From an uncultured Mycoplasma sp. (lineage in GTDB: Bacteria > Bacillota_I > Bacilli_A > RF39 > UBA660), in NCBI GenBank assembly GCA_945947035.1, contig CAMEXD010000008.1, positions 1-64,000 on the forward strand: DNA of 64,000 bases, written 5' to 3'. Below, piece after piece: positions 46,349-51,803 of this stretch. Position 1 is the first letter of the stretch; the number at the start of each line of letters is the position of its first letter. Position numbers and translations under genes: made by a program. The notes under the pieces are model-generated. The model worked only from the letters and a program-made list of their open reading frames with translations. It did no database searches and was not told the origin of the DNA.

Positions 46349-46396
46349 AAAAGACTAGTAAAATATTAGTCATTTATTTAGACAATTTTACTAGTT
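46349..46396 (-). terminator. terminator of glycine-rich gene
   Basis: ACTAGTAAAAT / ATTTTACTAGT stem with T-run on the minus strand, overlapping the stop at 46391. Confidence 0.8.
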
Positions 46397-47470
46397 ATTG
46401 TTATTGTTGCCACGATAAATTTTTATAAAACCGGAAGAACCTGCCAAGCCAGAATAACCAGCACCTTCATTAAGATTTCTATAACCACTGCCACCTTTTC
46501 CTCCAACATTTCCTCCAGTATATCCTGCTTCTCCTCCTGCTCCACCAGTTGCCTCCCAGTAGTTAGCAGAAACATATGTAGTGGTTCCACTTTTTCCAGC
46601 AAGTCCATTTAAATTTTTATAATTGCCACCACTTGCTATTCCACCATAGCCACCACTGCCTCCAGTATATCCTCCCTCTGTAGGACTACCTCCAACACCT
46701 CCACTTTTTACTTGAATAGTATCATAAGTATCAAGCGAAATACTTACTATAGCAGATGATGTTAAGCCAGAAGAACCAATAGTCAAAGAAATAGTTTCAC
46801 CTTTTTTCATAATTACACGAGAGTTGGCATAACCTCCTCCGCCTCCGCCGCCACCAGCAGCAGGAACTATAGCATGACCTCCATATGCATTACCACCATT
46901 TCCACTTGCTCCGAAAACTTCTATTTGAAAATATCCATCTTCTGGAGCAGTCCAAGTTTGGGATGTTGTATATGTGTTTATTAAAATATATTCTGTTGGT
47001 TCATTTGGAAAAGTTACAACAATTATATTATCGCTTACATTTGATTCTTTGTTATAATTACCATTTATATCTTGAATTACATTTTCCTTTAACTTTATAT
47101 TTCCTATGGTACTTATTTCTCCTGATGTTATCTCTATTATATATTTATAACCATCATCTATTTGTTCTTTAGATATATTACTTATTGTTATATCACCAGT
47201 TACAATAAAATTATCACTTACTAAATCAGTATCAACTACACCAAAATCATCTGTACAATTCATAGTATAATTTGCATTACTATTTGCTCCTATTTCAGAA
47301 GTATCTGGTCCATCTATTACACATATTGGTCCTTTTAAATCACTATATACTATTTTTATATTACCTTCTTGTTCTACTTCATAACTAAATAATGCATAAG
47401 AAGATAATCCCACGCATGATAGTATTACAAGTATTATCGTTATTAATAAATATTTATTTATTATTTTCAC
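46391..47470 (-). CDS. glycine-rich surface protein, probably phase-variable
   Basis: A 359-residue protein as readable from GTG 47470. A hydrophobic helix (YLLITIILVILSCVGLSSYAL) is followed by a beta domain (residues ~45-155, two Cys) and a glycine-rich domain of the Gly_rich_2 type (TYTTSQTWTAPEDGYFQIEV, then YGGIASGG-like runs and a string of nine Gly). The GTG has no usable ribosome site. The strong site GGAGGT lies before ATG 47538, which is separated from this frame by an 11-G tract; a tract of 12 G would fuse them (see finding). So in this sequence the gene appears switched off. Confidence 0.8.
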   Translation of the reverse strand: MKIINKYLLITIILVILSCVGLSSYALFSYEVEQEGNIKIVYSDLKGPICVIDGPDTSEIGANSNANYTMNCTDDFGVVDTDLVSDNFIVTGDITISNISKEQIDDGYKYIIEITSGEISTIGNIKLKENVIQDINGNYNKESNVSDNIIVVTFPNEPTEYILINTYTTSQTWTAPEDGYFQIEVFGASGNGGNAYGGHAIVPAAGGGGGGGGYANSRVIMKKGETISLTIGSSGLTSSAIVSISLDTYDTIQVKSGGVGGSPTEGGYTGGSGGYGGIASGGNYKNLNGLAGKSGTTTYVSANYWEATGGAGGEAGYTGGNVGGKGGSGYRNLNEGAGYSGLAGSSGFIKIYRGNNNNN

Positions 47471-47506
47471 ATCGGTTAAGAGGAAGCTTCTTAGTTTTTT
47501 AACTTG

Positions 47507-47517
47507 CCCCCCCCCCC
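47507..47517 (-). repeat. homopolymeric G tract (11 G on minus strand)
   Basis: Eleven consecutive C on the plus strand in an otherwise very AT-rich region. It lies between ATG 47538 and GTG 47470: 21 + 11 + 36 = 68 nt, one short of a multiple of three. With 11 G the ATG frame stops after 15 codons (TAA at 47491). Confidence 0.9.
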
Positions 47518-47566
47518 ATATCGAATTTTTGTTTGCATTTTTTTATACCTCCATTTTTTAACACAA

Positions 47567-47609
47567 AAAAATGTGTTATATTCTTATGAATTAATTCTAA
47601 CACATTTTT
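47567..47609 (-). terminator. terminator of spoIIR
   Basis: AAAATGTGTTA / TAACACATTTT stem followed by TTTTG on the minus strand, 18 nt after the spoIIR stop. A second small hairpin AACACA/TGTGTT overlaps the distal arm. Confidence 0.75.
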
Positions 47610-47626
47610 ATATTTTTTGTCTATTA

Positions 47627-48157
47627 CTATTTATTTAAAATATACTTATCAAACAAATCTTTAATTAAAAATCTATATTCAATATCATCTGTTTCTTCTG
47701 CTTCTAAAGTACAAATTGGTGGAAATAAAACACACCAGAAATTTTCTCCTTCACCTTCTCCTAGCGTTATAACTAATGACTCATAATTTCCTTCTTCATA
47801 AATAACTCCTTTATATTCTTTTTCTGGAAAATAATTAAGACCATAATTAATTGTAAAACCTTCATCATAAGATAAATCATCTAAAGTTTTTTGAACTATA
47901 CTTTTATAATTATTAATATTATTTGTAATAATACTTCTTGATTCTTCAATAGAAGTAGAAGTACTTAAATCATCATAAAAACTTTTTTCTAAACTTTCTT
48001 TAACTTTAACTTTTACATATTTATCATAAACACTATTACTATTTGCAATAACTCTAAATCTAATAGAATCATCTGGAATTATATAATAATCTTTTTTTTC
48101 ATTTATAAAAACATATCCTAAAACTATAATTGCTAGAACGATTAAAATCTTTTTCAT
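47627..48157 (-). CDS. spoIIR: stage II sporulation protein R
   Basis: A 176-residue exported signalling protein. One N-terminal helix is followed by IPDDSIRFRVIANSNSVYDKYVK, then YFPEKEYKGVIYEEGNYESLVI, and the hallmark GEGENFWCVLFPPICTLE. In Bacillus, SpoIIR made under sigma-F in the forespore triggers SpoIIGA to process pro-sigma-E in the mother cell. Start at 48157 with GGGTGAT. It is the second sporulation-specific gene in the window. Confidence 0.95.
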   Translation of the reverse strand: MKKILIVLAIIVLGYVFINEKKDYYIIPDDSIRFRVIANSNSVYDKYVKVKVKESLEKSFYDDLSTSTSIEESRSIITNNINNYKSIVQKTLDDLSYDEGFTINYGLNYFPEKEYKGVIYEEGNYESLVITLGEGEGENFWCVLFPPICTLEAEETDDIEYRFLIKDLFDKYILNK

Positions 48158-48209
48158 TATCATCACCCAAGGTAATAATGATTAGTTTTAAAAAAAATTA
48201 TGCAATATA

Positions 48210-50415: not shown

Positions 50416-50537
50416 AACATTCCTCCCTATATAATAATTATAACTAATTTTAGAATTTATTAAAAGATATTATTGATTTTTAGTGAAAAAAATTATATTA
50501 TTAAGGTATAATAAAAAGAGAAAGGAACGTGGTTTTT

Positions 50538-51803
50538 GTGAAAATAGTCAGCTTAACTCCACAACAATTTGATTTTTTTTCTTATAATCACCATATGCAT
50601 TCATTTTATCAGACAAGTATGTATGCTAATTTAATGTCAAATTATAACTATGTTCCATCTTATTACGGATTTGTTGATAATGAAGGAAAATTAATTGGTG
50701 CAACAATGATGATTAGTCAAAATATTTTAGGAAAATTTAAATATGCTTATTGTCCAAGAGGATTTTTAATAGATTATGATAATAAAGAATTATTAAAGGA
50801 AATAACAACTAAATTTAAAAATTACTTAAATAAAAAGAATTATTTATTTTTAAAAATGGATCCACTAGTTATAAATAATAAAAGAGATAAAGAAGGAAAT
50901 ATTATTCCTAGTCCTTACTCAAGTGATCTAGTTCCTTTTTTACAAAATATTGGTTATAAATATTATGGAGAAAATAAATATTTTGGAACATTAAAGCCAC
51001 GTTGGAATGCTATTTTAAAAGTAACAGGATCTAGTGTAACTCTATTTAAAAACTTTGATGATTCAACGAGAAATAAAATTAGAAAAGCTCAAAGTAGAGG
51101 AGTTGAAATATTCCAAGGAACGGAAAATAATATTAAATTATTTTATAGTTTTATAGCTAGAAAACAAAGTCATAACCTTGCTTACTATAAAAATTTTGCA
51201 GCTTGTTTTGGTAAAAACTTTGAAATATATTTTGCAAGACTTAATACTGAAAAATACTTAACTAATGTTAAAAAATTATATGAAATTGAGATGCTTAATC
51301 TAGAAAATTTAAATAATGAAATTCAAGAAAAGAGTTTAACTAATAGCATTTCTGATAAATTAATGAATTTAAAGTTAGAATCAGATAAATTAGTAGCAAC
51401 TTATAAAAATGAATTGCAAGAAGCATCAAAATTATTTGAAAAACATCCTGAAGGTATTGTTATTGCATCATGTGCTGTTGTACTAGATAGAAATGGTGTT
51501 GAATTTTTAATTGATGGTCAAAATCCAGCTTATGGTCTTTTTTATCCAATTTATTTACTTAAATGGCATATTATTGATAAATATGCAAAACAAGGTGCAA
51601 TTTATTTTGATATGAATGCTATAACAGGATACTTTGGAGATAATAATAAATATCGAGGTTTAAATGAATCAAAATTAGGATTTAATGCTGATGTTACAGA
51701 ATATATTGGTGAATTTGACCTTGTTATAAAACCTACTATTTATAAGTGGTATTGTGAAAGTAAATTCTTTAGAAAACTTATGAAGAAGAAAACCAAACAA
51801 TAG
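50538..51803 (+). CDS. FemAB-type peptidoglycan bridge aminoacyltransferase
   Basis: A 421-residue member of the Fem/MurM family, which adds amino acids from tRNA to the lipid II stem peptide to form interpeptide bridges. Two GNAT-like domains (HSFYQTSMYANLM; SCAVVLDRNGVEFLIDGQNP) are separated by a long helical arm (residues ~240-310, coiled coil). Characteristic motifs: YCPRGFLIDY, NKIRKAQSRGVEI and YFDMNAITGYFGDNNKYRGLNESKLGF. Both 50529 and 50538 are GTG; 50538 has better spacing to AAAGGA. Single gene. Confidence 0.9.
   Translation: MKIVSLTPQQFDFFSYNHHMHSFYQTSMYANLMSNYNYVPSYYGFVDNEGKLIGATMMISQNILGKFKYAYCPRGFLIDYDNKELLKEITTKFKNYLNKKNYLFLKMDPLVINNKRDKEGNIIPSPYSSDLVPFLQNIGYKYYGENKYFGTLKPRWNAILKVTGSSVTLFKNFDDSTRNKIRKAQSRGVEIFQGTENNIKLFYSFIARKQSHNLAYYKNFAACFGKNFEIYFARLNTEKYLTNVKKLYEIEMLNLENLNNEIQEKSLTNSISDKLMNLKLESDKLVATYKNELQEASKLFEKHPEGIVIASCAVVLDRNGVEFLIDGQNPAYGLFYPIYLLKWHIIDKYAKQGAIYFDMNAITGYFGDNNKYRGLNESKLGFNADVTEYIGEFDLVIKPTIYKWYCESKFFRKLMKKKTKQ

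Follow-up and report, generated by a model that had tools for sequence, protein, structure and literature searches.

The most familiar cases of poly-G phase variation come from epsilon- and beta-proteobacteria and from other pathogens. Coding-frame contingency loci with poly-G or poly-C tracts have been described in Campylobacter (PMC8355987), in Helicobacter canadensis (PMC2823697) and at meningococcal hmbR/hpuAB (PMC3786947). In the Neisseria porA switch, the G tract lies in the promoter spacer (PMC3639595), and in the pil1 attenuator of Streptococcus gallolyticus a repeat is located in a leader peptide, one frame of which brings the ribosome into a terminator upstream of the surface operon (PMC3894217). 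Surface genes of Candidatus Mycoplasma girerdii are often OFF in the population consensus, with ON states among minority variants (PMC5476646). Bacilli of the RF39/UBA660 type are genome-reduced gut bacteria (PMC13155120); among the open-licence PMC papers searched, none described phase variation in RF39/UBA660-like lineages or mentioned shared poly-G leader cassettes.

Here we describe an 11-G tract on the minus strand of a 64,000-nucleotide stretch of DNA (hereafter the window) from an uncultured bacterium. Its genome size and low GC, the presence of spoIIR and the many families of mycoplasma size in its class suggest that it is of this type. We interpret the tract as a reversible slipped-strand reading-frame switch of a membrane-anchored, glycine-rich surface protein, a reading to which we assign a probability of about 0.87; slippage, cell-to-cell variation and the surface role are inferred. 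The system resembles the Campylobacter, Helicobacter and Neisseria loci in placing a G tract within the 5′ part of the coding region, with ON/OFF control by frame, putative surface functions and many loci in one small genome. It differs from them in belonging to a low-GC uncultured lineage, in using one species-specific leader cassette at many loci, and in the fusion of the tract to the signal-anchor of secreted proteins. With Candidatus M. girerdii it shares an uncultured host read from metagenomes and a mostly-OFF consensus; unlike the bacterium studied here, M. girerdii relies mostly on dinucleotide repeats and BspA-like proteins, and no shared leader cassette has been described for it.

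Anatomy of the poly-G tract

The initial annotation had proposed ATG 47538, 8 nt downstream of GGAGGT, as the start of the gene at 46391–47470, and direct reading of the minus strand gives exactly this arrangement, with the ribosome-binding site (Shine–Dalgarno sequence, SD) GGAGGT at 47547–47552. The codons after the ATG are CAA ACA AAA ATT CGA TAT, ending at 47518, and encode the leader MQTKIRY (47518–47538, minus strand). The 11-G tract (47507–47517, minus strand) begins 21 nt after the ATG and is followed by 36 nt (47506–47471) up to GTG 47470, in exact agreement with the 21 + 11 + 36 nt division first suggested. On the 3′ side of the tract, the minus strand reads CAAGTTAAAAAACTAAG... and enters the frame of 46391–47470.

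Translation bore out both of the proposed frame outcomes. At 11 G, the frame of ATG 47538 encodes MQTKIRYGGGGKLKN and is closed after 15 codons by a TAA read directly at 47491–47493 (minus strand); at 10 G it stops after 12 codons, and the third frame of the window copy also meets a stop a few codons from the tract. At 9 or 12 G, by contrast, the product is MQTKIRYGGG(G)QVKKLRSFLLTDVKIINKYLL..., which continues into the 46391–47470 frame and joins the short leader to the membrane helix (MQTKIRYGGG(G)QVKKLRSFLLTDVKIINKYLLITIILVILSCVGLSSYALF...). The proposed switch is thus open (ON) at 9 or 12 G and shut (OFF) at 10 or 11 G, and the assembled state of the window copy is OFF. A tract of at least 8 early in the coding region, with one open length class and early truncation in the others, is among the marks of a contingency locus, and the window copy has these properties. 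Such a run had been judged unlikely to arise by chance, and the counts agree: it is the sole G or C run of at least 6 in the 64-kb window, which contains dozens of A/T runs of 7–8, and 100 shuffles gave an expectation of zero G9 matches.

The window arrangement corresponds to neither of the other two described designs. The tract sits after the start codon, not between −35 and −10, and the locus is therefore not a porA-type promoter-spacer switch. The region between the tract and the membrane helix contains no terminator and no second SD-ATG, as would be needed for a leader-peptide attenuator of the pil1 type.

Upstream, a candidate promoter (TAGACA-18 nt-TGTTAGAAT; 47594–47623, minus strand) lies inside a block common to other cassettes. 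Because consensus matches are frequent in this AT-rich region (12 found versus 9.5 expected), its support comes from conservation among most cassettes. An AT hairpin (TAACACA-TTTTTT-TGTGTTA; 47559–47578, minus strand) is located in the cassette 5′ leader of most copies; it is absent from L050 and L054 and hence not essential. We considered this hairpin as an attenuator and rejected it, because its longer form has the candidate −10 within the 5′ arm, and two cassettes have no such hairpin.

The switched gene (QVKKL...; 46391–47506, minus strand) encodes one N-terminal membrane helix followed by a glycine-rich C-terminal half, features from which a surface role is inferred. A domain match, to ALK_LTK_GRD (PF12810; E = 0.0075), scores 16.7 bits and does not reach the Pfam cut-off of 24.5. 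Only sub-threshold matches were obtained against Pfam and NCBIfam and weak ones against PHROGs, leaving no confident domain, and viral contigs contained no match for the cassette or for the protein. Single-sequence folding was poor (mean pLDDT 37), with the membrane helix alone modelled with any confidence. The upstream neighbour is spoIIR (47627–48166, minus strand; PF09551, E = 8e-36), which provides context and is not part of the switch. Elsewhere in the window, an open reading frame at 50529–51803 lies on the plus strand, opposite to most of its neighbours. Its sequence recalls peptidyltransferases of the FemAB/MurM type.

Eleven copies of one cassette

The genome from which the window derives (G000) is a 1.17-Mb assembly of 42 contigs, 71% complete. 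It contains 11 tracts of G9 or longer, all in copies of a single cassette (SD-ATG-MQTKIRY-Gn-Q(V/A)KK) located 5′ of membrane-anchored genes. The cassette combines the candidate promoter (TAGACA-18-TAGAAT) with the SD, the leader and the tract, and most copies also carry the small AT hairpin. The leader DNA is identical in 7 of the 11, the other four having one or two mismatches, and identity falls 3′ of the tract, where the genes differ. Tract lengths of 9, 10 and 11 G are found in three, six and two copies, respectively, the window copy being one of the 11-G pair and 9 G being the open state. At the loci examined, both incorrect frames close within 1–12 codons. The genes behind the tracts either are glycine-rich, like that of the window, or are longer and carry a lectin/FGE-type C-terminal part (with one weak FGE-sulfatase match), and several signal-anchor types are represented.

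Tract-free paralogues also exist, which marks the switch as something added to the gene family and not part of its fold. One of them (MQTKINYGGYAKKL, C3:25462) adjoins a switched copy and has Gly-Gly in place of the tract. At this locus (L046, G000:C3:20500-27500), the paralogue lies directly upstream of the switched copy, and a mutS-like gene lies directly downstream of that copy.

The Gly-Gly at the same place in a tract-free paralogue would suit a different explanation, in which the G run is a mere codon run in a glycine-containing leader and expression proceeds irrespective of the tract. Translation would then start at GTG 47470 or, where there are 10 G, at a second ATG (gATGGGG...) that touches the tract. 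Both of these codons can be in frame. However, no SD precedes GTG 47470, as the initial annotation had also stated, and none precedes the second ATG, for which the SD would sit about 30 nt away. The second ATG is moreover in frame for one tract class only (10 G, as in six sister copies), the SD and leader are among the most conserved parts of the cassette, and at about 25% GC glycine codons would not all be GGG. We consider tract-independent expression very improbable.

The C-termini encoded at L047, L048, L049, L051 and L058 (..PWFLRGGYYxxGxxAGVFYY..SSRSSLIIN) vary strongly from one paralogue to the next and resemble the variable, lectin-fold termini found in targets of diversity-generating retroelements. 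We rejected such a retroelement as their origin, since no reverse transcriptase (RVT_1) was found in G000, with the reservation that the assembly is 71% complete.

Tract length and selection between orthologues

The only other genome of the genus is the metagenome-assembled genome JAQXMG01 (SUG1322), hereafter the sister genome. Scanning genome contigs for a second strain of the species returned only this sister species, with the same stretch as its locus L097. The presence of spoIIR next to both loci anchors the orthology of the window locus with L097. Over 1,814 bp, the two are 91.7% identical with 147 substitutions, and the single gap is the tract, which has 11 G in the window and 8 G in L097. 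In another orthologous pair, located where contig C29 ends, the counts are 11 and 9 G. Tract length thus varies among copies and species while the flanks are kept, and the fixed length across relatives that would have refuted switching is not seen; no other strains of the species entered this comparison.

The frame that follows the tract has a dN/dS of 0.30 over the 107 codons common to the window copy and its orthologue, both of which are out of frame in the assemblies. The neighbouring spoIIR has a value close to this (0.24), and paralogues have values of 0.36–0.46. Purifying selection (dN/dS about 0.3) on genes that are shut in the assembly implies that they are translated at times, since permanent silencing would leave no such ratio.

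Three arrangements across the family

We searched 386 genomes of the family, representing 150 genera, for an SD and ATG followed by 8–36 nt and G8. Matches were present in 56 of the genomes and 40 of the genera, mostly in multiple copies. Leaders are repeated within a genome and differ between species (MKEKIRL in G135, MLTNTNI in G300 and MKDKSMYTERKF in G239). Outside the family, a class-wide sample of about 258 genomes yielded 11 matches, and the repeated form occurred in only two (G639 and G625). Because at least 8 G were required, the counts understate shorter tracts; only the anchored searches of G000 and G206 are free of this limit. Examination of about 130 regions distinguished three arrangements, termed A, B and C.

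Arrangement A, in which the tract is fused to the leader as in the window, is found in G135, G043, G074, G239 (prepilins), G196, G206, G031 and others; the 21 copies of G206 have the tract inside the signal peptide.

In arrangement B the tract forms part of a promoter spacer (TTGACA-N-Gn-TATAAT), as in porA. It occurs in 38 of the 386 genomes and in 27 genera, whereas the reversed pattern, used as a control, had no match in any of the 386; G000 has no match to the promoter-spacer pattern. The 101 distinct promoters have spacers of mostly 18–20 and tracts of mostly 8–11 G (range 8–12), and in 11 promoter groups flanks identical within one genome enclose one G more or less. Spacers of 19 are the most frequent, exceeding the usual optimum by one to two. 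Genomes with such tracts include G028, G196, G292, G119, G372, G297 and G210, with up to about 20 matches per genome, a number that sets these relatives apart from Neisseria porA.

An artefact of assembly or sequencing, or gene decay with a chance frameshift, might be suspected at the window locus, since the metagenome assembly is only 71% complete and contigs end near 4 of the 11 tracts of G000 (0.05 expected); lengths of tracts near contig ends are accordingly less certain. Against both stands the recurrence of this design across dozens of genera, in genomes independent of one another whose leaders are particular to each species and whose genes are intact and under purifying selection. Spacer tracts whose reversed control has no match likewise argue against them. 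We regard this as the least credible of the explanations considered.

In arrangement C, a short open reading frame carrying the tract is followed by an intrinsic terminator and then by the SD-ATG of a surface gene. It was identified in G208 (L118-L126), G292 (L128-L136), G346 (L074), G324/G250 (L194-L211) and G094 (L203). One frame takes the ribosome into the hairpin and two stop earlier; in one example, the stop is at 39 with the hairpin at 29–55, and the other frames stop at 11 and 7. In dinucleotide shuffles, exactly one open frame arises by chance with P of about 0.32–0.58 per locus and 0.006 for six representatives. On its own, the frame pattern is therefore only modest evidence. Taken together with the terminator, it suggests that these loci are probably phase-variable attenuators like pil1 of S. 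gallolyticus. They differ from pil1 in using a G tract in place of GCAGA repeats and in occurring at several loci per genome.

The proteins encoded behind the tracts start with a membrane segment at the N-terminus and continue with lectin/FGE-like, DUF6273, Big_2 or glycine-rich parts; prepilins and an acyltransferase are also represented. The acyltransferase is a tract-switched gene of G370 (L066). Prepilin-like switched genes (FTLIELLAVIVIL, N_methyl) are found at L104 and L115 (G135), L197-L201 (G239), L172-L176 (G074), L214 (G031) and L087 (G108). Judging from these sequences, pilus-like fibres may be phase-variable too.

An excess of copies one G beyond the open frame

If tract lengths were free, about one third of copies would be expected to be open, and the observed distributions do not fit this expectation. 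The most frequent state has one G too many in G000 (6 of 11 copies), G135 (21 of 21), G206 (18 of 21), G208 (9 of 10), G300 and G074. In G206 those 18 copies have 9 G, the remaining three have 10 G (two too many), and none is in the open frame (8 or 11 G). In G135 (L100-L116) the total spacing from ATG to gene is the same in all 21 leader copies despite changed tract-edge bases. The total length is mostly kept in G208 as well, again with changed edge bases, which in both genomes speaks against very frequent slippage.

This excess, the conserved total length in G135 and G208, and purifying selection on genes every one of which is out of frame in the assembly could also be explained by recoding. 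Some full-length protein would then be made because RNA polymerase slips, or the ribosome shifts by +1, on the G run; alleles with one G too many would be weakly expressed rather than silent, and frequent changes of the DNA would not be needed. Open-frame copies nevertheless exist (3 of 11 in G000 and most of those in G196), as do copies that are two off. Orthologues are also unequal in tract length, as are copies whose flanks are identical, and promoter-spacer tracts, which have no reading frame, share the 8–12 length range. Recoding is unlikely in our judgement, although less so than either of the alternatives discussed above.

That frame-less promoter tracts show the same lengths indicates a preferred length of 9–10, which explains part of the excess. 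We favour slipped-strand switching with a default-OFF state, as reported for M. girerdii. It is possible, and we propose it only tentatively, that the one-G-too-many setting is itself selected. Large surface-gene repertoires would be held default-OFF one base out of frame (or 1–2 bases past the best promoter spacing), rare single-G deletions or G-run recoding would release a few genes at a time, and a short promoter-leader-G-tract module would be kept alike across unrelated surface genes within a species.

Discussion

In the mechanism that we envisage, replication slippage would add G's to the tract or remove them. At 9 or 12 G, a ribosome starting from ATG 47538 would continue into the membrane-anchored, glycine-rich surface protein, and at 10 or 11 G it would halt within 12–15 codons. 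With at least 11 copies of the leader cassette, each cell could display an individual set of surface proteins. Switching might serve escape from phage or immunity, or alter adhesion; no evidence presented here bears on its use.

Slipped-strand phase variation, as put forward in the initial annotation, gains support from several direct observations: the anatomy of the locus, the exclusivity of the tracts to the cassette, the length differences among paralogues and between orthologues, selection on the protein, and similar arrangements built on the same principle in related genera. All of this evidence comes from assembled genomes, with neither mixed reads nor protein data. At the level of the genome, phase variation is strongly supported; without raw reads, variation within populations and expression are not demonstrated. 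The principle is known. What appears new, within the literature searched, is the repetition of a species-specific cassette, the number of its loci, the occurrence of three designs alongside one another and the lineage.

Poly-G switches appear to govern the surface of a large uncultured family of Bacilli that have small genomes and probably live in the gut, with 10 to about 50 tracts in single genomes and three designs. Gene calls in this family should be used with caution, because they truncate many surface proteins or give them a wrong start. Strain-level surface states become readable from existing metagenome reads, and the family offers a genus-level comparison for how such switches arise and persist. 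Poly-G switching would explain surface variation in genome-reduced commensals that have few regulators.
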